Shown one piece after another: positions 2,251-23,478 of a stretch of 24,680 nucleotides of DNA (position 1 is the stretch's first letter; each line of letters opens with the position of its first letter). Both the position numbers and the translations under genes were made by a program. Source of the DNA: a virus. The notes below the pieces were generated by a model, which saw nothing but the letters and a program-made list of their open reading frames with translations, searched no databases and was not told the origin of the DNA. The stretch is from the IMG/VR virus record IMGVR_UViG_3300031669_000223, positions 1-24,680 of that record; one strand, given 5' to 3'.

Positions 2251-2436
2251 ATGACTAAATTAGAACAAGCAGTTAAAGATTGGTTGACCCTACCAATGCA
2301 ACATCTTGATTATAAATTAAATCTTAATGAGTATCTTGAAAAGAAAAAGATTAAGGCAACAGAGGAAGAAATGGAAAGCGCGGTTGAGAAGATGAGTAAT
2401 GGGAAAATTTGTAATGAGGGGAGGGAGAAGCCATGA
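2251..2436 (+). CDS. small helical hypothetical protein
   Basis: A 61-residue, mostly helical, charged protein with no recognised motif. The upstream AAGGGAAGG stretch is a reasonable ribosome binding site. It overlaps the start of the RuvC-like gene by four bases (ATGA at 2433), so the two are probably translationally coupled. Confidence 0.55.
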   Translation: MTKLEQAVKDWLTLPMQHLDYKLNLNEYLEKKKIKATEEEMESAVEKMSNGKICNEGREKP

Positions 2437-2894
2437 TAATCTTAGGAATAGATCCCGGGTCCGAAAATAGTTGGTGGGTAATATGGGATACAGAAAAGCA
2501 AAGAATTATTGAAAAAGGAATATTCCTTAATACAGACTTCCCAGTAGCCTTTGAAGTAGATATCGTAGTAATAGAGGATATCCAGTGTTTTGGAATGCCT
2601 GTCGGTAAAAGTGTTTTTGAAACTGCTAAGGCTATCGGTAGATTTTTAGAGAGGGCAGAAAACCGGCACATACCAATAGTTCAGATTGGGCGCCGGGAAA
2701 TTAAACTCCATTTTTGTAATTCCACCAAGGCTAAAGATAGCAATATAAGACAGGCAATAATAGACCGCTTCGGTGGGAAAGAAAAAGCAATCGGGTATAA
2801 GAAAAGTCCAGGCGTGTTGTATGGAGTGAAAGCTGACCTTTGGTCATGCCTTGCCTTATGTTTATGGTTTGAAGAGCAACCGGAGGGGAAATAA
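2433..2894 (+). CDS. RuvC-like Holliday junction resolvase
   Basis: A 153-residue protein of the RNase H-like/RuvC superfamily. The N-terminal strand has GIDPG with Asp7, a second acidic position lies in VIEDIQ (Glu48/Asp49), and the C-terminal KADLWSCLAL supplies Asp135 in the place of the usual HxxDA helix. The length matches RuvC-type resolvases (150-175 aa). Known family role: metal-dependent cleavage of four-way junctions or branched DNA, here likely to debranch replicated phage DNA before packaging. A GGGAGGGAG site precedes the start. A divergent RNase H-like nuclease of other specificity remains possible. Confidence 0.8.
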   Translation: MIILGIDPGSENSWWVIWDTEKQRIIEKGIFLNTDFPVAFEVDIVVIEDIQCFGMPVGKSVFETAKAIGRFLERAENRHIPIVQIGRREIKLHFCNSTKAKDSNIRQAIIDRFGGKEKAIGYKKSPGVLYGVKADLWSCLALCLWFEEQPEGK

Positions 2895-3087: not shown

Positions 3088-3756
3088 TTGAGTAAAAAGA
3101 ATAAGTTATATGGTACTGGGTTTTCTAAAGGCTCATTTGAACGAATGGTAGAAGTAAATCAGGGCTATAATAAAACTATTGACGGACTTTATAAGAGGAG
3201 GTCAAAGATGAAATTTGAAGCTTATGAACTTTTAGTGTTATGTCGTTTAGCGAAAAATTTTAGGCAACAAGTAGAGAAGATTTTAAAAAAGTTACCAGAA
3301 AGAGAACGCAATGTTTTAAAATTTAGAGTTTTTAATGAGTTTACATTAGAAAAGGTTGCTAAAATTATCGGTGTTACAAGAGAAAGAATAAGACAACTTG
3401 AAGCAAAGGCACTCAGGAAACTTAATTGGCAACTCCAATTTGGTAATGTTTCTTTCTATCTAAATTATAAAGAAGGCAAACCTATTACACAAAAAATTAT
3501 CAAAGTTATTATTCCAAAAGATTTATCAGAAATTCCGATTCGTTTCGTTTCGGATTGGTCTGTTAGAACTTTGAATTGTTTTGGTAGAGCAAAAATAAAA
3601 ACTTTAGGGGATCTCAAAAAATATAAATTAGATGGCTCTGTTTATGATAGGGAGAGTTTATTAGGTTTTCGGCAATTTGGGAAGAAATCTTTAGCAGAAG
3701 TAAGAAGTAAATTGGCTGGATTTTTAGTTTATACTTTATTTAAGGAGGGAAAATGA
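3088..3756 (+). CDS. sigma70 region 4 / RNAP alpha-CTD fusion regulator
   Basis: A 222-residue protein starting at TTG 3088 after AAGGGGAGGA. Residues about 62-115 are a sigma70 region 4: LPERERNVL, then a helix-turn-helix ending in [18 protein letters not shown]. Residues about 149-212 are an RNA polymerase alpha C-terminal domain: [10 protein letters not shown] and FGKKSLAEV. The alpha-CTD residues known in E. coli to contact UP-element DNA (R265, N268, C269, G296, K298, S299) all have counterparts: R160, N163, C164, G198, K200, S201. So one polypeptide carries both a -35-reading and an UP-element-reading module. It has no sigma region 2, so it cannot melt promoters alone. Inferred role: retargeting or competing with host RNA polymerase. 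An internal ATG at 3208 may give a shorter form. Confidence 0.88.
3196..3210 (+). promoter_or_regulatory. internal Shine-Dalgarno and in-frame ATG
   Basis: AGAGGAGGT followed by ATG at 3208 lies inside the sigma4/alpha-CTD gene, in frame (codon 41). It is at least as good as the site at the TTG start. Initiation here would give a 182-residue protein keeping both DNA-binding domains but losing the basic N-terminal 40 residues. It could be the true start or a second start. Confidence 0.45.
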
Positions 3757-4481: not shown

Positions 4482-4500
4482 AAATAAATAAAAATAACAC

Positions 4501-4529
4501 TTGACAAGATTTGGCTATTGATGTATACT
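4501..4529 (+). promoter_or_regulatory. consensus sigma70 promoter
   Basis: TTGACA (4501-4506), exactly 17 bp, then TATACT (4524-4529). The predicted start site is near 4536, giving a leader of about 20 nt before the ATG at 4556. It is one of the best host-type promoters in the window and separates the accessory operon from the small regulator gene. Confidence 0.85.
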
Positions 4530-4883: not shown

Positions 4884-5567
4884 ATGGTTGACAAATGGAT
4901 TAAGAGATGGGAAGTTCCAAAATCTTCTGGAGAGGGTGTTTGGATCGTGGCACTTGATAAACAGGGGAATTATGGCTGTAGTTGTCCCTTGTGGAAGTTC
5001 CGTAGGGAAGAGTGTCATCACATATTACAAGTAAAAAATAATGGTGGTGAACAGGTCAAGAACTTAACAGAAGAAGAAAGGGCAGAGTTAAAACTAAAGG
5101 CTTATGCTGAGAAAGGTTACAGATATTATACTTGGTATAATGAGCCTTTATTCTCTCATGAACGCCAGAGTTTAGAAGATTTAAAGAATTGGAAACTAAT
5201 TGATGATGTTAAAACTTTTGCCAGGAAAGGTATCTATCGAACTCAACGGGTTGTCTTGATTAAAGAGAATCCTTTAGCCTATGAGAATGAATTTACTAAC
5301 TTTGTTAAGTTACTCAAGAGTTGTAACTTTAGGAAAAGATTTAGCAGGAATCCTTTAAGGTCCGGGATTTGGAGTAGTGATTATTGGGTATCTCAGAAAG
5401 AATTAAGGAAAGAATTAAGGCAAAGATGGTTTGATATTACTCAACACATTATTTATAACAAGACTGGTATTATCAATTCTAATTTGCCTAAAGGGTCTGT
5501 CTATAATAATGGGGAATGGGGAAAGAGAATCGTTAATTTACAGAGGCATTTTAGGTTTTTAAAGTAG
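4884..5567 (+). CDS. SWIM zinc-finger protein
   Basis: A 227-residue protein with an AAAGGAGGG site. The N-terminal ~50 residues carry a SWIM-type zinc motif, CxCx(n)CxH: Cys32, Cys34, Cys44 and His46. SWIM domains bind DNA or proteins and occur in transposases, SWI/SNF-related and other nuclear or phage proteins. The remaining ~175 residues are basic with many Trp, Tyr and Arg and no recognised catalytic motif. It is the last gene before the hairpin-rich gap. The role is unknown; nucleic-acid binding is the best inference. Confidence 0.7.
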   Translation: MVDKWIKRWEVPKSSGEGVWIVALDKQGNYGCSCPLWKFRREECHHILQVKNNGGEQVKNLTEEERAELKLKAYAEKGYRYYTWYNEPLFSHERQSLEDLKNWKLIDDVKTFARKGIYRTQRVVLIKENPLAYENEFTNFVKLLKSCNFRKRFSRNPLRSGIWSSDYWVSQKELRKELRQRWFDITQHIIYNKTGIINSNLPKGSVYNNGEWGKRIVNLQRHFRFLK

Positions 5568-5600: not shown

Positions 5601-5629
5601 TTGACAAACTATAAGTAGGCGGTTAAACT
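5601..5629 (+). promoter_or_regulatory. candidate promoter in hairpin-rich gap
   Basis: TTGACA (5601-5606), 17 bp, then TAAACT (5624-5629), which matches four of six -10 positions. The predicted start is near 5636. Downstream comes a terminator at 5710-5748, so the transcript could be a short RNA of about 110 nt or, by read-through, the packaging genes. Confidence 0.35.
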
Positions 5630-5670
5630 TAATAGTGAGGACTAATCACTATGTCTAACCGCCACTTTTT
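5618..5670 (+). terminator. long bipartite hairpin with T tract
   Basis: The outer stem GGCGGTTA (5618-5625) pairs with TAACCGCC (5656-5663). The inner stem ATAGTGA (5632-5638) pairs with TCACTAT (5646-5652), with a 7-nt loop. TTTTT follows at 5666-5670, so it could act as an intrinsic terminator. Its left arm overlaps the candidate -10 box, so it may alternatively be a protein-binding inverted repeat. Confidence 0.5.
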
Positions 5671-5709
5671 ATTATATTTAGATTTAGGGAATAGTCAAGT
5701 AAATTATTT

Positions 5710-5748
5710 GCCGAGTTATCTATTAGAGATAGATAACCCGGCTTTTTT
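5710..5748 (+). terminator. rho-independent terminator
   Basis: Stem GCCG(A)GTTATCTA (5710-5722) pairs with TAGATAAC(C)CGGC (5730-5742), with one mismatch and a 7-nt loop, followed directly by six T residues. This is the clearest intrinsic terminator in the window. It separates the accessory genes from the packaging genes. Confidence 0.8.
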
Positions 5749-6513: not shown

Positions 6514-8073
6514 ATGGAAACCTCAGGTCATTTACAGACGGATAAACTCGACTCGGAGACAGTTGAGGCTAATTTGAAGGCTCTTGATGAAGAAGAGAAG
6601 ACCCTTAAACTGGAAGTATTAAGGCTTTATTCTGAGGAAGGGCTTAAATACTTTGTACCCAATGGCGGTCAAGAGAATGTAATCAAGATGGTAAAACCGG
6701 AGACCAATACTGTTATTCTCTCTGCCGCTAATGACTTTGGCAAGTCGGCTTTAGAGGTTAACTTTGTCGGCAATATGATATATGGACCGACCAACGAATG
6801 GTTTAATACTCCATTCTTCAAGAACTTCAAGCGACCTTCCAAGGGAAGAATTATAAGCGATGGGACTACTGTTGAGGAGAAGATAGTCCCGGAGCTTCAG
6901 AAGTGGCTTATCAAAGGTACTTACAAGTCCAGGAAGGCCGGTAGGAACTTTGAGAGTGTCTGGAACTTCAAGAATGGTTGTTACTTTGACATTATGACCT
7001 ACGACCAGAAACCGAAGGAGTTTGAAAGCGTGGATCTTGACTGGGCTATTCTTGACGAAGAACCTCTGGATTGGGTTTACAAATCTACGGTAGCAAGAAT
7101 GAGGACTAATAGATTTATATTTATCGGCTTTGCTCCTCTCTCGGCTTCTGCCTGGGTGTTTGATGATATAACTCCCCGGGAAGACAAGAAGAAGATAGTC
7201 GTTTACTATGGCGACGCAGAGGAGAATTGCATTGAACACGGACTCAGAGGACAAAGGAAGCATGAGGACATAATGGACAAGGCGGCGGAATACGATCCTG
7301 ACGAAAGAGAGGCAAGACTTCACGGTAGACCTCAAAAGTTCTATGGCCGGGTTCATAAGATATTTGACAGGACTGTTCACGGTATCGATGAACTTCCTCG
7401 CGACCTGTACTCCTATTTTATGATACTTGACCCTCACGATGCAAGACCTCCGGCAATATCCTGGGGAGCAGTCAATTATCACGGACACAAGTTCACTATC
7501 CACGAATGGCCTAATGAACCCTTTCACAAGATGAAATCCTGTTCTCTTGACTTCGACGACATAGCCAAGATAATCAAGCACATAGAGGTTGACTTGAAGA
7601 TTGATGGGAAGATACAGGAGAGGATACTTGACCCTTACTGGTATGCTCATAAGTACCCGAACAGTCAATTAACGGTAGCCCAAGAGTATGCCAAGAGAGG
7701 AATCAAGTTTGGTCCTCAGCTAAAACTCTTCAAGAAGTTTGAGGAGACAGCCAGGAAGCAGTTGAACGAGCATTTGAAGTATGAGAAGAGAGAGGACGGT
7801 ACTTTTAAGATCCATCCGAAGTGGTATGTGCTTAATCACTGCTACAATCACATCTACGCGTTTGAGCATTGGGTTATCGGGGACAGGACTGGTAGGTCTG
7901 CGGAAACCAAAGACCCTGTTGAGAAGCCAGAAGAGAAGCATCAATGCTTTCCGAAGTTACTCTACTACTGGCTAATGAGTAATCCAAGATACATAGTGCC
8001 GAAGGTAAAGATAGTGAAACCAGCAATGACTTCAGAGGATAAGCGATTTTCTAAAGCAGGGAGGATTAGATGA
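6514..8073 (+). CDS. terL: terminase large subunit
   Basis: A 519-residue packaging motor. The N-terminal ATPase has a Walker A of the A/G-x4-GKS form (AANDFGKS, residues 71-78), a Walker B with acidic pair (WAILDEE, residues 177-183, Glu182 the likely catalytic residue), and a coupling-type motif in FIGFAPL (203-209). The C-terminal RNase H-like nuclease begins with the strand ILDPHD (residues 304-309, Asp306 metal ligand). Known role: ATP-driven translocation of concatemeric DNA through the portal, and genome cutting. An AGGGGG site precedes ATG 6514. The stop overlaps the next start as ATGA. Confidence 0.93.
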   Translation: METSGHLQTDKLDSETVEANLKALDEEEKTLKLEVLRLYSEEGLKYFVPNGGQENVIKMVKPETNTVILSAANDFGKSALEVNFVGNMIYGPTNEWFNTPFFKNFKRPSKGRIISDGTTVEEKIVPELQKWLIKGTYKSRKAGRNFESVWNFKNGCYFDIMTYDQKPKEFESVDLDWAILDEEPLDWVYKSTVARMRTNRFIFIGFAPLSASAWVFDDITPREDKKKIVVYYGDAEENCIEHGLRGQRKHEDIMDKAAEYDPDEREARLHGRPQKFYGRVHKIFDRTVHGIDELPRDLYSYFMILDPHDARPPAISWGAVNYHGHKFTIHEWPNEPFHKMKSCSLDFDDIAKIIKHIEVDLKIDGKIQERILDPYWYAHKYPNSQLTVAQEYAKRGIKFGPQLKLFKKFEETARKQLNEHLKYEKREDGTFKIHPKWYVLNHCYNHIYAFEHWVIGDRTGRSAETKDPVEKPEEKHQCFPKLLYYWLMSNPRYIVPKVKIVKPAMTSEDKRFSKAGRIR

Positions 8074-8384
8074 CCGAACCAACGAAAGACAAAGGCAATG
8101 GGAAACCCCAAGAAACAGTTAAGCCATTAGCAGGTTTACCTGTCAGCGATGTTGATATTTGGTTTATCGTCGGAGTTTCCAAGAAGACGGGAGGAATGAT
8201 TATCGCAGGTCCAAAGGTTGAGGAGTTACAGAAGTTTAAAGAGAGAAAGACAAGAGAGCAATGCTTAGACCTTTTGATAGAAGCATTGAATACAGTTATG
8301 GCGAATACTAAGCAATCCCAAAAGAAATCTTCGATATTGAGAGTAGGCAGAAACATTTTTCTTCCCGGAGGAACGCATGATTAA
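8070..8384 (+). CDS. hypothetical protein between TerL and portal
   Basis: A 104-residue protein coupled to TerL by a four-base overlap. The disordered charged N-terminus (~20 aa) is followed by a small alpha/beta segment (DVDIWFIVGVSKKTGGMIIA) and a Lys-rich helix. No family recognised. Position in the packaging module suggests a virion or packaging accessory role. Confidence 0.6.
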   Translation: MTEPTKDKGNGKPQETVKPLAGLPVSDVDIWFIVGVSKKTGGMIIAGPKVEELQKFKERKTREQCLDLLIEALNTVMANTKQSQKKSSILRVGRNIFLPGGTHD

Positions 8385-8399
8385 GAGGAGGAAGAGATA

Positions 8400-8555
8400 A
8401 TGCCCTACAAACGCAAAGGGAAAACGATTCTTCATAAAAAAGATGGTTGGTCGAAAAAGCAAAAATGTAAAAGTGTTCGCAAGGCAAAAAGTGCAATGAG
8501 ATTATTACACGGTATTGAACACGGAATGAAACCCAGAAGACGAAAAAGGAAATGA
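8400..8555 (+). CDS. 51-residue highly basic protein
   Basis: A short protein in which close to half of the residues are Lys or Arg (MPYKRKGKTI...KPRRRKRK). It has a strong AAGAGGAGG site and lies directly before the portal gene. A central KAKSAMRLLHGIEHGM segment would form an amphipathic helix. Very basic small proteins are common beside phage head genes and may bind DNA or the capsid interior. No specific function can be given. Confidence 0.6.
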   Translation: MPYKRKGKTILHKKDGWSKKQKCKSVRKAKSAMRLLHGIEHGMKPRRRKRK

Positions 8556-8556
8556 T

Positions 8557-10620
8557 ATGCAGTTAAAACTTCTTAAAGAAAAGAAACTTAATCTTGACAG
8601 TAAGGACAAGAAAGATATTCTGGGTAGCATTATCGAAGACCTTGACGAAGCGATTAACAGCAATCCAGATTTAGAAGAAACTATCAACGGTTACGATAAA
8701 CTCGCCGCAGGGGATTTACCAGAGAAGACAGAACCCTGGGATGGTTGTTCAAATATCAATCACCCTATGATTCGGATAGCAATTAGCGGAGGAGTAGCTC
8801 GATGGATGAAGCAACTTCTTGGTCGTGGCAAGATGATGGTTGCGAAGCCGGGGACTGATGAGCAGAATAAACTTGCTCCTCGTATTGAAACGGTTATTGA
8901 TTTCCTTATGAGGACAGAAATAAAACTAAAGCGAACAATCCGTCGGCTTGTCAAGAAGGTTGCTAAACACGGAACAGCAATAGCCCATCCCTACTGGGTT
9001 GAGGAGAAAGAAATTGTCAAGGATGTAAAAATTTATAAAGGCGATAATGCTTTGATGGACTTTAAAGAAGATTTTCCATCGGCTGAAGAAGGAGGTATGG
9101 AAGAGAAAGAGTATCGGGCTTATCTTAGAGATTTGGAGAAAGAGCCAGAAACAGGGATTGAAATTCCTGTTGAGTATGAGGATTACAAATTCAGAGGAGT
9201 TAGGGTAGACGTAATTGACCGAAGAGATTTTATAATTCACAAAGATATTATTGACCCTGAGAAAGCGAAAGTAAAAGGGCAAAGGTTCTGGCAGAGTTGG
9301 TATGAGATTGTCGCAAGGTATGAGGCGGGAGAATACGGAGAGGATAATGGCGGAGAGTCTTTAGAGGCGTTAAAAGCAAAATTAGGCGGAGAGAAAGACG
9401 ATAAAGAAGAGAAAAATCCTGACTATACGAAGAAACGACTTGAATGTGTCAAGGCTATTTATAAATACGATGTTGATGATTGTAAGAAGAAAGAAGAAGC
9501 GTTGCTGATAACTATTATAAAAGACGCAGAGGCTGGCGTTGAATATCTTTTGCGTTGCGAGAATTACGGATTTTGGCACGGCAGAGATTTCTTCATTCCT
9601 TTCAGGATTGATGAGGGAGATGGATTTGATGGCGAGGGATTTGCGGAAAAACTCTGGGATATAAACTTATACGCTAACGCCGCACACAACCAGAGAATTG
9701 ACAGGGGAACGATAGCGAATATTCCATTTTTCAAAGGGCGAAAGGGTGCTGATGTAGAAGAAAGTCGTTTAGAACTTGCTAAAGGAATAGTCTATTGGCT
9801 GGAACATCCAGATGATTTTGAGCAGGTAAGAATTCAGGGAGCGCCGATTACAGATTTAATTGCTGAAGAACAGATGTTGGAGAGAATGGGAGAGTTGACA
9901 ACAAAAATCACTACATCAGCCACAGGGAAAGAATCGGCGACTGACCCGAGAGCGCCGGCAACAAAGACACTCGCTTTACTTCAGCAACAGGACATCGGGA
10001 TTAGCGATTACATAGATTGTCTTGACCCTTCCTTTGCTGAACTTGCCTACCAGATTTTATCTCTTTACTATGAGTTTGGGTTTAATGATGAGGAAGAGGG
10101 AGAAGGAACAGTAATCAGAGAATTGACAGGAGATAAATATAAATTTGAACCATTAACAAGACAGGAATTAAAAATTAAGGGAATGGAGTTTGGACTGCGA
10201 TGTTCAACAACAGGAATGAACGAGATGGTTGAAGAAGCGAAGTTTAAAGAAATTGCTGGTCTTTTAATACAAACGCCGGAAATTATGCAAGACCGCGTAA
10301 GGTTCTGGAATGTAATCAGGGAAATGGTTGATAGGTCTGGTTTAGAGATTAGCTCAGATATTCTTCCCACTCCAGAACAGATGGAGAAAGAGAATTTGAA
10401 AAGAATAAAACAGGCATTAAGGGAACTTGTTAAAGAGAGAATGCAGGGAATATCGGAAGAGGCAAGAGGCGAAATTGAAAAACGCTTTCAAATGCTTTTC
10501 CAAATATTAGGTCTTGGAGGAACGCCACCGGTAGCAGGTGCGACTCCGCCAACACCAACAGGAGGTGCAGGTGCAGAAATTACAGGACCCAAACTACCAG
10601 AAGAAGTTGGAGCAGTGTAA
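8557..10620 (+). CDS. portal protein
   Basis: A 687-residue protein starting one base after the preceding stop. Recognition rests on size, position between TerL and scaffold/capsid, and portal-like features. These include an N-terminal region with WDGCSNINHPMIRIAIS, a wing-type alpha/beta middle, the SATGKESATDPRAPATKTLA segment resembling portal stem/clip regions, and a long helical C-terminal part ending in a Pro/Gly-rich tail. The length is typical of P22-like short-tailed phage portals. Known role: dodecameric ring at one capsid vertex, the docking site for terminase and tail adaptors. Confidence 0.85.
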   Translation: MQLKLLKEKKLNLDSKDKKDILGSIIEDLDEAINSNPDLEETINGYDKLAAGDLPEKTEPWDGCSNINHPMIRIAISGGVARWMKQLLGRGKMMVAKPGTDEQNKLAPRIETVIDFLMRTEIKLKRTIRRLVKKVAKHGTAIAHPYWVEEKEIVKDVKIYKGDNALMDFKEDFPSAEEGGMEEKEYRAYLRDLEKEPETGIEIPVEYEDYKFRGVRVDVIDRRDFIIHKDIIDPEKAKVKGQRFWQSWYEIVARYEAGEYGEDNGGESLEALKAKLGGEKDDKEEKNPDYTKKRLECVKAIYKYDVDDCKKKEEALLITIIKDAEAGVEYLLRCENYGFWHGRDFFIPFRIDEGDGFDGEGFAEKLWDINLYANAAHNQRIDRGTIANIPFFKGRKGADVEESRLELAKGIVYWLEHPDDFEQVRIQGAPITDLIAEEQMLERMGELTTKITTSATGKESATDPRAPATKTLALLQQQDIGISDYIDCLDPSFAELAYQILSLYYEFGFNDEEEGEGTVIRELTGDKYKFEPLTRQELKIKGMEFGLRCSTTGMNEMVEEAKFKEIAGLLIQTPEIMQDRVRFWNVIREMVDRSGLEISSDILPTPEQMEKENLKRIKQALRELVKERMQGISEEARGEIEKRFQMLFQILGLGGTPPVAGATPPTPTGGAGAEITGPKLPEEVGAV

Positions 10621-13013: not shown

Positions 13014-13991
13014 ATGGCAATACGAACTGATTATACTCACGCAATAACGGAGAAGTTATACGATTGGTATTACGAATCGTATGACCAACTTCCTTCCGTT
13101 CACGATAAGATTTTCAGGAAGAAGGAATCGAAAGCAGCCTATGAAGCATCGGTTTCAGGAGTTGGGATGGGTAAACTTCAGAAGCAATCCGCTGAGATGC
13201 AGTCAATCCAGTACAGAGACCCGATGGAAGGGTATCCTGTATATGGCAAGAACGACACCTTTACTGATGGTATCAAGTTCAGCAAACAAACAGTAGATGA
13301 CTTCCCTAAGAGTTACATCGAGAACATACTGAAAGAAACAGCTGGAACTTGGGGCGAAGCAGTTCAAGCAACAAAGGAAGCGTTCTATGCGGATGTCTTC
13401 AACAAAGGTGCATATACTGCTGGAGATGCTATGTTTAATGCTTCCGTTGCTGGATTTACTGACCCTTCGGGAAATGTTATCTATGACGGTAAGTGTCTGT
13501 TCACGCCTACTGGTGCTAAGAGAAGTTCAAAGGGAGGCGGAACATACTACAACGCCATAGCATCAGCAGCCTTGACAGGAGCAAACCTGAAGATCGCCTA
13601 CGACCTTATGACAGTAACGAACAATAGGAATGAAAGGGATTTACCAGTTTCAATCATTCCTGATACTCTCTTAGTTCCAGCGAGCTTAAAGTTTACTGCT
13701 GAGGAGATTCTGAAGTCCGAAAAAGAACCATATGTAACCACCAACACGACAAATGTTCTTCGGAACATTGTCAATTTAGTTGTGTGGAATGCTTACTTGA
13801 CGGATACTAACGCTTGGTTCTTGGGCTGTGCTCATAAGGGTTTGATTGCGATGGACAGAGAAGACACCATTTTAGACTACTTCCAGGATGAAGACACCAA
13901 AGCCTTTAAAGCGAATATTTGGGTTCGTTTCGGTTTGAAGATTGACAACTGGAGATTCTGGGTAGCTTGTAATGCCGAGACATCAGCTTAA
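13014..13991 (+). CDS. major capsid protein (HK97-fold, putative)
   Basis: A 325-residue protein with AAGGGGGTGA upstream. Position after scaffold and decoration genes and the sequence texture fit an HK97-fold capsid protein: an N-terminal helical/E-loop-like part, then PDTLLVPASLKFTAEEIL, followed by NVLRNIVNLVVW strands and a C-terminal R-x-G strand-rich domain. The PDTLLVP...A.EIL block resembles Mu gpT-like and related major capsid proteins. Known role: main shell subunit, assembled on the scaffold around the portal. Confidence 0.82.
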   Translation: MAIRTDYTHAITEKLYDWYYESYDQLPSVHDKIFRKKESKAAYEASVSGVGMGKLQKQSAEMQSIQYRDPMEGYPVYGKNDTFTDGIKFSKQTVDDFPKSYIENILKETAGTWGEAVQATKEAFYADVFNKGAYTAGDAMFNASVAGFTDPSGNVIYDGKCLFTPTGAKRSSKGGGTYYNAIASAALTGANLKIAYDLMTVTNNRNERDLPVSIIPDTLLVPASLKFTAEEILKSEKEPYVTTNTTNVLRNIVNLVVWNAYLTDTNAWFLGCAHKGLIAMDREDTILDYFQDEDTKAFKANIWVRFGLKIDNWRFWVACNAETSA

Positions 13992-18261: not shown

Positions 18262-18519
18262 ATGCCGAAGAAAATCAAGGATGGGGATGGAAACCTGATA
18301 CCAGATAGAAGGAATAATAATAGTAAAGTTACTTATCGAATCACTTGGGGAGCAATCATTCTATTGACTATTGTTATCGGTTATCTCTTTACTGCTAAGT
18401 CGCAATCGGAAGCGAGGATAAATAGAATGGAGGGAGATTATACTGAAATCAGAATGCAGTTAAGCCAGATACAGACGGATATTTCTTGGATAAAGAGAGA
18501 GTTTGAGAGGAGAAGATAA
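18262..18519 (+). CDS. membrane protein with C-terminal coiled coil
   Basis: An 85-residue protein: basic polar N-terminus (1-26), one transmembrane helix (about 28-44, WGAIILLTIVIGYLF), then a coiled coil to the end. The layout recalls small phage holin- or XhlA-like membrane proteins, though XhlA has the opposite order. AGGAGTAG serves as the ribosome binding site. It overlaps the adaptor gene start (TAATG). Confidence 0.55.
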   Translation: MPKKIKDGDGNLIPDRRNNNSKVTYRITWGAIILLTIVIGYLFTAKSQSEARINRMEGDYTEIRMQLSQIQTDISWIKREFERRR

Positions 18520-19208
18520 TGGAGAATGTTTTAGATATAATTTCGCAGGCAGCAATAGACCTCAAAGACCCTAACTTTGGCCACTTCGGTAAGGCTATGT
18601 TGCGTGGTTGGGCTTCAGAAGGTCAGCGTGAGATAGCACGACGCACGGACTGTTTACAGAAGCAAACGGGCGATGTTTCTTCTCTAATGGTAGCAGATAC
18701 GATTGAACAAGTTCTGAGTACTCTTATTCCAAATACAGAAGTCTTGGCTATATTTTCTGTATATGGTGGAACAAGCACAAGCAAGAAGGCATTAGAACCT
18801 ACTATGCCTCGTGAGATGGACAGGGATGACGCTTATTGGAGAGGTAGGACAAGCGAGACTCCGACAAAATTTTATGTGGGTCCGGCGGGAACTATCGGAT
18901 TCGTGCCACCACCCAGTGCTTCGTGGTTGAGTGCAAACGGAATGTATATTGTCTACTCTTGTTTACCATTGAACGATTTCACAAGTGATTCAGATATTCC
19001 TGAGATTTATCCTAAAGCGTGGGATTATATCAAGGACTACGCAGTATTGCGAGGAAAAATGGAGGATCGTGAACTGGTTTCGTGGGATAGATTGTGGCAA
19101 GTTTGGCGGGACGGATTAGCCTTCATAAGAAGTGAACCAAGAATTGAAATTAAAGGCAAAACTTCACGAATAATTCCGATTGGTGGAGTGCAAATTAATG
19201 CTCCTTAG
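18519..19208 (+). CDS. head-tail adaptor (connector) protein
   Basis: A 229-residue protein. The N-terminal helical part (residues 1-45, [12 protein letters not shown]...[12 protein letters not shown]) is followed by a beta domain with [22 protein letters not shown]-terminal helical part follows around [20 protein letters not shown]. These features match gp4/gp11-type adaptor proteins of short-tailed phages that bind below the portal. It is followed directly by the tail gene, as in podoviruses. The stop is at 19206-19208 and a new ribosome binding site (TTAGGAG) spans it. Confidence 0.72.
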
Positions 19209-19860
19209 GAGATTTTTGATGAGATTTTTTATATTTCAAAATAGTTTTTCCAAATTCAGAAAGTGTGGGAAATTTCTGAAGAATTTCAAATTTTATATGT
19301 TCAGATTGATTAGTAAACAATTTAAGATTTTCTATTCTGTTATCATCAAGAACACCATTCTTATGGTGAACCTTTTCTTTAGGTCTAAGGTAACGACCGA
19401 GATGTTCTTCCATTTTCAAACGATGTTCTCGAACATAACCGCTATTATTTGCAAAAGGGTGATTAGGTCGAAACAAAAGAATATAACCAGATTTATCTTT
19501 AATTTTTCCACCTTTCCATCCAGGATGTTTACTTCCACAATACAATCCTTTATGACTTTCAGACAATTTTTCTCTAATTTTTATAGGAAGTTTTCTTCCA
19601 GTCATTTCTTTCCTACGCTTTATACCTTCTGGGGAATCCCAAAACTTCCTAAGAGTTTTAGAATTCGCTTTGCCTATTTTTATTTTCCATTCTTTACCAT
19701 TCCGAAAACATTTTCTCGAACAATATTTAGCATTTACACAAGGATTAACCCAAAATTCTTTACCACAAGTTTTACAAACCTTCTTAATTTTTTTGCCACT
19801 TATAAATCTACCAAGTTTATCTCTCATTTCACTAATTCTCGGATAAATTCCTCTTGGCAT
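19195..19860 (-). CDS. HNH homing endonuclease, antisense
   Basis: A 221-residue endonuclease on the minus strand, with GGAGGGAATT before its ATG at 19860. It has an N-terminal zinc-ribbon (Cys29, Cys32, Cys47, Cys51), NUMOD-like helices and WKGG (residues ~115-118). An HNH_3-type core follows ([17 protein letters not shown] at 144-160, then [16 protein letters not shown] at 164-179). Known role: DNA cleavage that spreads the gene into phages lacking it. Its 3' end overlaps the adaptor gene by 14 bp. It uses none of the codons TTA, CTA or TCA for 16 Leu and 14 Ser, so the opposite strand stays open in frame with the tail gene. Confidence 0.88.
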
Positions 19861-19974
19861 AATTCCCTCCTAAAATTAAAGGCGGTTTTCAGGTCGTCAA
19901 TAAGAGAACGATTAAATTCTCTAACCCTACTCACCGCCGATTTTTGGCATAAAAAAACCGCTCCCTTATTGACT
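19861..19974 (-). promoter_or_regulatory. structured leader RNA of the antisense HNH gene
   Basis: The minus-strand leader runs from the predicted start (~19974) to the HNH ATG. GTCAATAAGGGAGCG (19973 to 19959) can pair with CGTTCTCTTATTGAC (19910 to 19896) over 15 positions with two G·U pairs. GCGGTTTT (19961 to 19954) can pair with AAAACCGC (19889 to 19882), giving a crossing arrangement. A local hairpin TTAGAGAA/TTCTCTTA competes with the long stem, and GGCGGT (19938 to 19933) competes for ACCGCC. The folds are mutually exclusive, so a switch or protein-binding leader is possible. Confidence 0.5.
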
Positions 19975-22900
19975 GGGATTATTTTAACATTTCTCTGTTT
20001 ATTTGTCAACCTTTCTTTTGCTCAAGACCTCAAATGGATTTCTATTAACGACTTCTCAGGTGGGTTAAACGACGATGTTTCCACTTGGGAACTTGCCGAC
20101 AACGAAGCAACCGACCTCTTGAATGTTTATGTCGACGAGATTGAAAAAGGAATTAGCAAGAGAAAGGGCTACCAAAAAGCAAACTCAACAACGACTACCT
20201 CAAACTCTTGGCTTCAAGACACCGCAGAAGATTGGAATGCTGGAACTTTAGTCAATATTGATACTTATACTGCTTCAGGAACATTCAGAATTGCTAAAAC
20301 AACAGAGGCAATAAATCAACAACAACCAGACCCAAAGAGTTCAGGTAGTTATACCTATGCCGGACCATTGGGGCAATCTTTTGAACTTCAAGAAGAAGGT
20401 ACCTGTACTAAGATAGCTTTATATTTATATAGATATTCTTCCGTTTCCGAAGATTTTACGATCCATATAGCTACAGATGATAATAATTCTCCAGTGGGTT
20501 CTTTAGTTTCTTTATCTGTATCCTCCAGTACAATAAGTGCGACTGGGGCGTGGCATATTTTTGATATAGATGATATAGACTTGTTAGCAGATACTCGTTA
20601 TTGGATTTATATTCCTAAGATTGGTGGAAATGTGGGAGAGTCTTATAACCTATACAATACGTGCCCAGATGGGAGTCTTTATCCATATGGTAATTATTGG
20701 GAAAACGGGACTCATTATACTACTACGGATTTAGCCTTCAAGATTTATGTGAAAGCCTATTTCCCATCTGGCTCTTTTATTTCTCAATCCTATGATTGTG
20801 GCTCAGATATTCAACAATGGGGAAGATTAGAAGCGAATGATACTCTCAATGGACAGACAATAACCTACGCAGTCAGGACTTCTTCTTATTCTGGCGGATT
20901 AGCAATTGCCGATTGGTATGAGGTTCAATCAGGGAATAATATCACTGCTCCAGTCAACCAGTATGTTCAAGGGATTTCTACCTTAACTTCAACAGGCAGT
21001 CAAACTCCAATCGTTAATAATGTTACGATTTACTGGTATTCAACTCCAGCCTCTGTTTTCGATTACCCAATTACAAGTCTACACCGATTAAAAAAATCCG
21101 ATGGGTCTGAATATATGTGGGCTGTCAGTAGTGGAACTATTTGGGGTTCAGATGATGCAGGAACTTTCAGTTCTGTTAAATCTGGAATGTCTACAACCTA
21201 TGATGTCAACTGGGCTAATATCGGCGATACTGCTTATTGTGTTGACGGATCTACTTGGGCCCAAAAGTTTACTGCCTATGATAGTTGTACAGCAGTTACA
21301 ACAGTTCCCAGAGGAAGATTCATAATAGAGGAAGGATATAGACTTTGGGTTGGTTATGCTTCTGGGTATCCGAACAGACTTTATTATTCTGATTTAGCAG
21401 ATGATACTACTTGGGATTGGGTTTATATCCCTGGGGAAGGCGAGATAACAGGATTAGGAAAGTTACAGGGTTCACCAATTGTCTACAAAACTAACTCGGC
21501 GTGGAAAGTTGTCGGAACACAAGTTACTACCGAAGAAGATGTCTATTTCGTTCCCTCTCTTGTAAATCTCTCCTCAGAAATAGGCTGTATCAATCATCGC
21601 GCTATTCAGAATTTCAGACTTAAAGGAATGACTGTTCAAGTCTTTCTCGGCAAAGATAATGTCTACGCTACTAATGGAGTAGCAGTAACTCCTGTTGGCG
21701 ATAAGATTGGGAATACTATTGAGGACTTGAAACAGGCAAGTTTTGCCTCTTCATATTCTTGGAATGAAACTCTTTTTACAGAGGGAACTTCTGTAAATGT
21801 TGATACAACAACAGTTCCTTGCACGATTAGATTAGATTCGGATTATTGGATAGAAACTTCGACTACTGATTTTGGTGCTGGAGTAACAAAAACTAATATT
21901 GATACTTCTAATGATGAGATTAAACTTATCCTTAGTGATGAGGCAATAGATCAACAGCAAACTACTTGGATTGGCAATTGGGGTCTAATTCCCGATAGAG
22001 CTCAATCTTTTAAACCTTCCCAAAATTGCTTTATTACAAAAATTTCAATATATGTAGGTGGAAATGGTAATTATACTTTAAGATTAAAATCTGATAATAA
22101 TAATTCACCAGGAATAACACTTCAAACAAAAACAATTTCTGTTACTTCTTGGGGATGGGAAGATTTTGATATTACGGACCAAGCTGTTAATGGAGGTGTC
22201 AGATACTGGATTTGGTTAGATAAAATGACCGATTCGCAGAATTGGAGTTATGCGACAGGTAACCCATATTCTAATGGTAATGCTTGGAATTCAATAGGAG
22301 GACATACTACTTCTTACGACCATCTTTTTAAAGTCTACGAAAAACATTATCCCGCATCTGGATACTTCCGTTCTCAAGAAAAAGATTTAAGTATAACTTC
22401 TGCTTTTGGCAACTTTCACGAAGACGATACAGGTTCAGGAATTACTTATAAAGTCAGAAGATATGTAGATGGTGATTGGAGTAGTTTTGTTACAGTAACT
22501 GACGGAAATAAGATTAACTTAACTCCAGGAACAAAAGTTCAATATGATATAACTTTGACTGGAACTGGTAATGCTACTCCAACAATTTATGATGTAAGTG
22601 TTGACTATGTTACTCAAGATGGCAATTTTACTTCTCAATATCACGACTGCGGAACGCAAATAACTAATTGGGGAAATTTCGTTCCTAATCATACCTTGAA
22701 TGGACAAATAATAAGTTATCAAGTTCGGTCATCTACTTGGTCGGGTGCCATTGATGGCACAAGTTGGTATGATGTCGTTCCCAGTGGTTTAATTCCTTGT
22801 TTAGTCAATCGCTATGTCCAATGGAAATCAATCTTCAATACAACTGATGGAACTAAAAACCCTACTTTAGAAGATGTAGCTATTTATTGGTGGGCTGGTG

Positions 22901-23478
22901 CTTTTTCAGGCTCAAGTCCTGCTTCAGTAGTCTATGATGACAGATACCATCTATTCGCTATGACTTCAGGTTCGGATGTAAACGATATTGATTTAGTTCT
23001 CAATGAAGATGGTGCTTGGACTAAAAATGATATAGGAGCAGATTCGGCGGTTATCTACAATGAAAAACTTTATACTGGAAGTTCAACAACGACAGCAAAT
23101 GGTAGTTGGCTTTACGAACAGGATATAGGATATTCAGATGATTTGCAACCGATAAATTCCTACTGGCAGTCAAAAGATTATGATTTGGGGATTCCTTATA
23201 AAGATAAGACATTGAGGAAGATATGGACTGTTGCTAAGAAAGTGGGAGCATATCCATTAAAGTTAGAATACATAACTGATTTTGGGAATACTCTTAATAG
23301 TTATAATGTTTGGCTTTCTTCAGGAGTGGCGATAGCAACTGATGAGAGACACATAAGCTCGGAAGCGCGAGGAAAGTTCTTTAGATTCAAAGTTTCAAAC
23401 AATGGCGAAAATCAACCATTCGAACTTTATAGGATAGATTGTGGTTTTCAACCAAGCCCGGGAGGAAGTGAACCGTGA
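19969..23478 (+). CDS. beta-propeller tail protein with duplicated binding modules
   Basis: A large tail protein of ~1169 residues from TTG 19969, the only near start. The same frame stays open upstream across the antisense HNH gene to ATG 19219, which has TTAGGAG correctly spaced, so the true start is unresolved. A signal-peptide-like stretch (LTFLCLFVNLSFA before QDLKW) leads. Then comes FSGGLNDDVS...DNEATDLLNV, the N-terminal signature of P22 gp10-like/tail-tube-B-like proteins. A propeller region (LWVGYASGYPNRLYYSDLAD; GCINHRAI; VFLGKDNVYATNG) and a C-terminal continuation follow. Two large beta modules are inserted. Known relatives form the tail tube or stabilise the portal channel. Confidence 0.75.
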   Translation: MTGIILTFLCLFVNLSFAQDLKWISINDFSGGLNDDVSTWELADNEATDLLNVYVDEIEKGISKRKGYQKANSTTTTSNSWLQDTAEDWNAGTLVNIDTYTASGTFRIAKTTEAINQQQPDPKSSGSYTYAGPLGQSFELQEEGTCTKIALYLYRYSSVSEDFTIHIATDDNNSPVGSLVSLSVSSSTISATGAWHIFDIDDIDLLADTRYWIYIPKIGGNVGESYNLYNTCPDGSLYPYGNYWENGTHYTTTDLAFKIYVKAYFPSGSFISQSYDCGSDIQQWGRLEANDTLNGQTITYAVRTSSYSGGLAIADWYEVQSGNNITAPVNQYVQGISTLTSTGSQTPIVNNVTIYWYSTPASVFDYPITSLHRLKKSDGSEYMWAVSSGTIWGSDDAGTFSSVKSGMSTTYDVNWANIGDTAYCVDGSTWAQKFTAYDSCTAVTTVPRGRFIIEEGYRLWVGYASGYPNRLYYSDLADDTTWDWVYIPGEGEITGLGKLQGSPIVYKTNSAWKVVGTQVTTEEDVYFVPSLVNLSSEIGCINHRAIQNFRLKGMTVQVFLGKDNVYATNGVAVTPVGDKIGNTIEDLKQASFASSYSWNETLFTEGTSVNVDTTTVPCTIRLDSDYWIETSTTDFGAGVTKTNIDTSNDEIKLILSDEAIDQQQTTWIGNWGLIPDRAQSFKPSQNCFITKISIYVGGNGNYTLRLKSDNNNSPGITLQTKTISVTSWGWEDFDITDQAVNGGVRYWIWLDKMTDSQNWSYATGNPYSNGNAWNSIGGHTTSYDHLFKVYEKHYPASGYFRSQEKDLSITSAFGNFHEDDTGSGITYKVRRYVDGDWSSFVTVTDGNKINLTPGTKVQYDITLTGTGNATPTIYDVSVDYVTQDGNFTSQYHDCGTQITNWGNFVPNHTLNGQIISYQVRSSTWSGAIDGTSWYDVVPSGLIPCLVNRYVQWKSIFNTTDGTKNPTLEDVAIYWWAGAFSGSSPASVVYDDRYHLFAMTSGSDVNDIDLVLNEDGAWTKNDIGADSAVIYNEKLYTGSSTTTANGSWLYEQDIGYSDDLQPINSYWQSKDYDLGIPYKDKTLRKIWTVAKKVGAYPLKLEYITDFGNTLNSYNVWLSSGVAIATDERHISSEARGKFFRFKVSNNGENQPFELYRIDCGFQPSPGGSEP
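19981..20009 (-). promoter_or_regulatory. minus-strand promoter for HNH gene
   Basis: On the minus strand TTGACA (20009 to 20004) is followed by 17 bp and TAAAAT (19986 to 19981), five of six matches at -10. The predicted start is about 19974, right at the first base of the structured leader. The promoter lies inside the signal-peptide codons of the oppositely directed tail gene. Confidence 0.75.
20206..21050 (+). repeat. binding-module insert, copy 1 in tail gene
   Basis: The encoded segment begins DWNAGTLVNIDT, then EAINQQQ, a jelly-roll-like domain with TDDNNSPVGS and RYWIYI, then GSFISQSYDCGSDIQQWG...LNGQTITYAVR...NQYVQ...NVTIYW. The first part resembles galactose-binding-like or 'choice-of-anchor' carbohydrate-binding modules. 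It is repeated in copy 2. Confidence 0.7.
21841..22900 (+). repeat. binding-module insert, copy 2 in tail gene
   Basis: This matches copy 1 in order: DFGAGVTKTNIDT, EAIDQQQ, SDNNNSPGIT, RYWIWL. It then has two rather than one of the second-type domain: a degenerate one (GYFRSQEKDLS...) and a close one (GNFTSQYHDCGTQITNWG...LNGQIISYQVR...NRYVQ...DVAIYWW). Protein similarity is clear but diverged. Confidence 0.7.

Follow-up and report, generated by a model that had tools for sequence, protein, structure and literature searches.

A phage protein that joins sigma region 4 to an RNA polymerase alpha C-terminal domain, with relatives in other phages and in bacteria

A virus record of 24,680 bases in IMG/VR, analyzed whole and referred to here as the window, encodes a protein in which region 4 of sigma70 (sigma4) is followed, on one chain, by the C-terminal domain of the RNA polymerase alpha subunit (alpha-CTD). 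These two domains touch neighboring DNA at the strongest bacterial promoters, yet do so from different subunits. The joined pair recurs in other phages, in mobile elements and in a few bacterial genomes, and its breadth is the main new point. Phage factors made of sigma4 only, the attacks of T4 on sigma4 and on alpha Arg265, and a phage alpha-CTD (in Goe8) are already known or annotated. Judging from its domains, we think the protein is probably—at odds of roughly 0.6—a non-catalytic, bivalent regulator that binds promoter DNA at the -35 and UP positions, accessory to phage promoters. Found in many different phages, a natural protein of this kind would let the joint reading of -35 and UP elements be tested in minimal form; it might also be a new way for phages to steer the host polymerase, and could serve promoter engineering as a compact part. 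With twelve examples from one motif scan, the question does not rest on a single uncultured contig.

THE FUSION GENE AND ITS PHAGE

The reading frame is intact and uninterrupted (Table 1). Its TTG start follows the Shine-Dalgarno sequence GGGGAGG (duplex -11.2 kcal/mol), and both are kept in the closest relative of the phage, a 45.8-kb record (L007) whose TerL is 96% identical; one open frame, with the same start signals in another phage, rules out a frameshift or an assembly artifact. Pfam matches Sigma70_r4 (PF04545) to residues 66–112 (E 1.5e-16; 60.1 bits against a cut-off of 24.1) and RNA_pol_A_CTD (PF03118) to residues 158–210 (E 5e-10; 39.4 bits against 23.8; E 6.8e-12 when the single record is searched). 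The rpoD and rpoA models of NCBIfam independently match the same two stretches, rpoD/rpoA-type matches being those found among the best 25 of 79, and this agreement of two libraries rules out chance domain matches. An earlier note, written from the DNA letters alone, had proposed just such a 222-residue chain, with its alpha-CTD at residues 149–212 and with no sigma region 2; Pfam, NCBIfam and AlphaFold agree in bearing it out.

Pfam finds no sigma region 2 in the fusion, and none turns up across the whole window record or that of the closest relative (G001), an absence that is provisional because the records are fragments. The N-terminal domain of alpha (PF01193/PF01000) has no match in the fusion, either, although both families are matched in L004, a true rpoA fragment; without this domain the protein cannot be built into core polymerase as its alpha subunit. 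Compared with Sigma-70 factors such as rpoD and the minimal one-HTH phage sigmas, then, it has the same sigma4 with the -35 contact residues kept, but no region 2 or 3, an attached alpha-CTD, and a different helix after region 4.2; compared with rpoA, it has the same C-terminal domain and UP-element contact residues, but no N-terminal domain. Neither Pfam nor PHROG matches the fusion to AsiA, MotA, gp33 or Alt/ModA, or to the Xpf, RinA and ArpU families of late activators. The linker is shorter than the 57–80 residues of other fusions, but its length should be ample for adjacent -35 and UP sites.

Table 1. Features of the window (residues are those of the fusion protein)
Feature	Position	Strand	Remarks
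RuvC-like resolvase	2433-2894		
Sigma4–alpha-CTD fusion gene	3088..3756	+	TTG start, 222 aa; Pfam matches for both domains above cut-off
N-terminal module, residues 1-42	3088..3213	+	Counterpart in L007 at 8278-8403, on a different C-terminus
Possible second product, 182 aa (M41-K222)	3208..3756	+	Internal ATG; both domains, without N-terminal module
Sigma-70 region 4 domain, residues 59-112	3262..3423	+	PF04545; pLDDT 85-96; PDB sigma4 matches
Interdomain linker	3424..3534	+	46 residues, L112 to V159
RNA polymerase alpha C-terminal domain, residues 150-212	3535..3723	+	PF03118
Small HTH protein, 77 aa	4248..4481	+	ATG start; weakly sigma4-like; L007 counterpart 8830-9036
Candidate target promoter, TTGACA-17-TATACT	4501..4529	+	Sigma70-like; 11/12 consensus matches
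Promoter-like TTGACA-17-TAAACT	5601..5629	+	Ahead of packaging/structural genes; also in L007
Terminator hairpin with U6	5710..5748	+	About 75 nt past the inferred 5601 start; kept in L007
TerL terminase	6514-8073		Recognized through relatives
SU10-type portal	8557-10620		Tailed phage
Capsid protein	13014-13991		
SU10 adaptor	18519-19208		

The window is probably a fragment of a larger phage, because the record of its closest relative is the longer one. The portal and adaptor matches are of SU10 type, which rules out a T4-like origin. The terminase found no match in bacterial genomes that would point to a host. The fusion gene lies between the resolvase and terminase genes, ahead of the terminase/structural operon. 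A second sigma4-like protein had been described 500 bp downstream of it; an HTH protein is indeed encoded there, but at 20.7 bits it scores below the Sigma70_r4 cut-off, and its matches to the 'late transcriptional activator' family phrog_836 and to NCBIfam models of late-activator type are also weak. Two other ORFs may be recorded here: one of 227 aa (4884-5567) that weakly resembles a SWIM zinc finger (E 0.05), and one of 1,432 aa (19180-23478) for which neither Pfam nor PHROG gave a match at the thresholds applied.

OCCURRENCE IN OTHER PHAGES AND IN BACTERIA

A direct search of IMG/VR gave no close relatives of the whole protein, and among 50,697 GenBank phage records both domains occur on only two contigs, faecal and unannotated (L002, L003). 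Family scans of IMG/VR yielded L010/L011, L012, L013 and L028. More came from a back-translation into DNA of the alpha-CTD motif VRxxNCxxRAxIxT, which matched 30 IMG/VR contigs. Read in frame, 12 of the 30 encode sigma4–alpha-CTD fusions (L072, L084, L085, L089, L090, L091, L092, L093, L098, L099, L011 and L087, the last being the contig of L010); 13 encode an alpha-CTD without sigma4, five are spurious, and none encodes a full rpoA. Among bacteria, 391 Clostridia genomes gave three clear fusions at the threshold used (L046, L054, L058), and two (L052, L053) came from 287 genomes of the phylum to which a Parcubacteria genome belongs (Patescibacteria); both counts are lower bounds, because thresholds were set strictly and scoring within each genome was limited to its few best candidates. 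A genome scan with an Xre-type fusion as query returned rpoD only. Most alpha-CTD matches in GenBank faecal 'phage' contigs and in plasmids were ordinary rpoA, and were discarded as evidence.

Two extreme readings fall away as a result. The protein is not unique to this phage, since the pair is encoded by no fewer than twelve further viral contigs and by some bacterial genomes; nor is it a common, already characterized host protein—an eventuality that the earlier note had reckoned with—since it is rare in the 391 Clostridia genomes and no description of it was found. That note is borne out in that we found no described family, but the protein is not a one-off. Nor did we find the joined pair described as a phage class in the searchable literature, subscription journals lying mostly outside it.

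The fusions come in several forms. Four from phages (L085, L089, L090, L093; 204–234 aa) and two from Clostridia (L046, L054; ~220 aa) share the bare layout and approximate length of the window protein, but are only about 30–40% identical to it, have other N-terminal tails, and belong to other phage types. Others carry an added HTH_17/MerR-like, Xre or other N-terminus or, in L092, a C-terminal extension. Those of gut and rumen phages and mobile elements (L010, L028, L072, L091, L002, L012, L013) have the same order of sigma4 then alpha-CTD but are preceded by an extra HTH; in the HTH–sigma4–alpha-CTD proteins scanned individually both domains score above the Pfam cut-offs, and in all of them both are matched. 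The settings vary, too. A terminase and a portal of SPP1 type mark L093 as a bona fide phage, in which the fusion precedes recombination genes. L090 looks like a prophage, its fusion following genes for a serine integrase and a repressor; in L089 a DNA polymerase A and a VapE-like primase are encoded as well, and L054 lies beside SSB and methyltransferase-like genes. Several gut-type fusions have a [YF]PxNL motif before sigma4 and look, from their sequences, like one family. The window protein is without the motif. Its sigma4 scores 133 against L028 and 117 against rpoD, and its alpha-CTD 104 against L085 and 102 against Bacteroides-type rpoA, neither pair of scores being separable; it is possibly an independent fusion event.

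Some variants on the theme deserve mention. In L058 (1087-3567, minus strand; G326:C26) a 993-aa SF2-helicase-like ORF ends in sigma4 followed by two alpha-CTD-like repeats. A phage protein of L029 (2638-3204, plus strand) combines sigma4 with a region that weakly resembles Xre, lacks the alpha-CTD, and is possibly an intermediate of the fusion class. Ten of the 13 proteins with alpha-CTD only were scanned with Pfam, L083 and L096 being repeats of L071 and L081, and L080 being truncated. All ten (L071, L073, L076, L078, L079, L081, L088, L094, L095, L097) have the alpha-CTD (E 6e-15 to 5e-27) and no sigma4, in ORFs of 98–611 aa—another use of the domain in phages. The 'RNA polymerase subunit alpha' of Bacillus phage Goe8 (Goe8_c00050) is likewise a phage alpha-CTD (E 4.3e-22) without sigma4.

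CONTACT RESIDUES AND PREDICTED STRUCTURE

Residue positions of sigma4 and alpha-CTD are given in E. coli numbering. Aligned to the E. coli proteins, the fusion has R98, E99, R102, K107 and R110 at sigma4 positions R584, E585, R588, K593 and R596, and R160, N163, C164, G198, K200, S201 and E204 at alpha positions R265, N268, C269, G296, K298, S299 and E302. All six UP-element residues named in the earlier note (the alpha residues just listed, less E302) therefore have counterparts; N294 differs, being Q196 here. Seven residues are inserted between helices 2 and 3 of the alpha-CTD, and H5, with which sigma4 ends in sigma70 ('RHPSR...'), has been replaced, so that counterparts of R599 and R603 are missing. 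Across 16 aligned fusions from phages and mobile elements (alignment A12), all of which match both Pfam families, sigma4 R586 and Q589 and alpha G296 are invariant, E585, R588 and E302 are nearly so, and position 261 of alpha is acidic in 14. Conservation of V264, R265, N268 and C269 is partly imposed, these residues having belonged to the pattern by which ten of the sequences were found.

Structure prediction of the protein alone, one of the checks that the earlier note had proposed, succeeded in part. With 16 homologues, AlphaFold gave a model (pLDDT 64.2, pTM 0.37) that is usable for the two domains only; a previous run with six sequences was of low confidence (pLDDT 51.5). Sigma4 is predicted well, most of the alpha-CTD less so (pLDDT 67–88), and the N-terminus, the linker and the 181–192 insertion unreliably; at this pTM the domains have no fixed mutual orientation. 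Foldseek matched the model to sigma4 structures and to the alpha-CTD of 9dvt at E values of about 1e-2, with none below 1e-3, and a sequence search of PDB chains found sigma4 as the sole domain.

A MODULAR 5' END

The first ~42 codons of the gene form a module that L007 has too. At the equivalent place, starting at 8278, L007 has a gene with the same beginning—72% identical over 43 residues, and 82% in DNA—but with another C-terminus, of 80 residues, that neither Pfam nor PHROG matches. Only residues 1–60 of the window protein matched the L007 record, which contains no alpha-CTD, though the absence of that module from the phage itself is provisional because the records are fragments. Residues 1–42 have no Pfam match, and no further carrier of the module was found in IMG/VR. 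Codon changes in the part common to both phages comprise six synonymous and ten non-synonymous ones, and strong constraint is not evident from them.

The joint appears to lie at a start of translation. Just 5' of ATG 3208, AGAGGAGGT gives the strongest pairing (-12.7 kcal/mol) among 13 window starts compared, and a 182-aa form with just sigma4 and alpha-CTD is plausible from the sequence; at the corresponding junction L007 has an in-frame AAAGGAGG and TTG 8398 (-11.6 kcal/mol). With an in-frame ribosome-binding site and start in both phages, the module seems to have been exchanged at a natural translation start, unrelated C-termini being joined in frame to a common 5' end. Since L007 does without the pair, the fusion is best regarded as an exchangeable accessory and not as the core of this phage's transcription program.

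WHAT THE FUSION MIGHT DO

The established functions of its domains suggest that the protein binds DNA, at -35/UP sites, and regulates transcription. Its sigma4 would read -35-like DNA through the major groove, and immediately upstream of this the alpha-CTD would read the minor groove of A/T-rich DNA; a single chain would then recognize a composite '-35 plus UP' address that two polymerase subunits normally read between them. Having no sigma region 2, it could not melt promoters, and must therefore act, with host holoenzyme or against it, where that enzyme opens them. An accessory role in activating or tuning phage promoters is the likeliest, and repression is less likely. The window has strong promoters of sigma70 type whose -35 boxes are complete (TTGACA), and candidate targets are the one at 4501, which is preceded by A-rich, UP-like DNA at 4482–4497, and the one at 5601; promoter-like sites in general (30, against 21.8 ± 4.7 in shuffles) are only mildly above chance.

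Support for a regulator comes from the relatives, many of which begin with an HTH of a classical DNA-binding kind (Xre, HTH_17/MerR-like), as would be expected of DNA-binding regulators, and from the position of the gene before a promoter, a terminator leader and the packaging/structural operon. Phage late regulators such as RinA, ArpU, Xpf and lambda Q often sit just before that operon. Fusions elsewhere, however, are found in early or replication regions (L090, L089, L093), and so no single regulatory stage fits them all. The same promoter and terminator leader are found in L007, without the pair, which counts against the regulator reading and means that the 5601 promoter does not require the fusion.

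A bolder, and we think rather doubtful, proposal is that the protein appropriates the polymerase. Its sigma4 would replace sigma70 region 4 on the beta-flap, host sigma region 2 would open the -10, and the attached alpha-CTD would replace or supplement that of the host, redirecting polymerase to phage promoters. The sigma4 is a full, rpoD-like one, close to group-1 sigma. Position 261 of alpha, which faces sigma4 in host polymerase, is acidic in the fusion. Jumbo phages are known to have minimal sigma factors with a single HTH (PMC7824862), and T4 shows that the surfaces are worth controlling: AsiA acts on sigma region 4, and Alt/ModA on alpha Arg265 (PMC2988021). The earlier note was right, then, that T4 attacks both, but it does so by binding or modifying host parts and not by mimicking them. 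Against appropriation stand the missing H5 and R603 counterpart, the lack of a sigma2 or other partner in the record, and a close relative, L007, that manages without the fusion. Small proteins that act at, or replace, sigma region 4 or the alpha-CTD include AsiA, MotA, Alt/ModA, gp33 and gp55 of T4, and SigO/RsoA of B. subtilis; SigO works with a sigma2 partner, of which the window record has none. To our knowledge, none of these fuses sigma4 with alpha-CTD. It is conceivable, if still improbable, that the fusions make up an undescribed class of detached, joined promoter readers in phages and mobile elements of many bacteria, each a portable '-35 plus UP' reader that works in trans with holoenzyme. 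That at selected promoters they would stand in for both region 4 of sigma70 and the alpha-CTD, by a route unlike that of T4, is equally speculative.

Less probable again is a decoy for host shut-off, in which the protein would prevent initiation by sitting on the beta-flap or on the -35/UP DNA of strong host promoters. The address would be that of holoenzyme, if the contact residues work as they do in the host, and with sigma2 missing occupancy alone would suffice to block; but the promoters of the phage bear the same -35 boxes and would be affected too, and general shut-off makes less sense for relatives in temperate phages and mobile elements such as L090. An equally slim prospect is that the pair is not a regulator at all but a portable DNA anchor for replication, partition, recombination or defense, as the helicase-like ORF of L058, the long phage proteins of unknown role with alpha-CTD only (L073, L081, L094) and the replication neighborhoods of several fusions might suggest, were it not for the specific -35 contacts kept in sigma4 and the repressor/excisionase-type HTHs, typical of regulators, on several relatives.

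A CONSERVED PROMOTER AND TERMINATOR LEADER

The leader ahead of the packaging and structural genes can be described in its own right. In both phages (window 5601-5748; L007 about 9060-9210) a promoter is followed within about 110 nt by a strong terminator, whose hairpin has a fold z of -4.2 in the window and -7.2 in L007; the arrangement looks like one controlled by antitermination. The leader holds a short conserved ORF that ends ...DNPAFLFYGVWTCGS. Over the -10 lies a dyad (window 5617-5664; L007 9072-9125) with arms GGCGGTTA/TAACCGCC in the one phage and GCCCAGTA/TACTGGGC in the other, between which pairing is kept; these compensatory changes point to an operator or an RNA hairpin.
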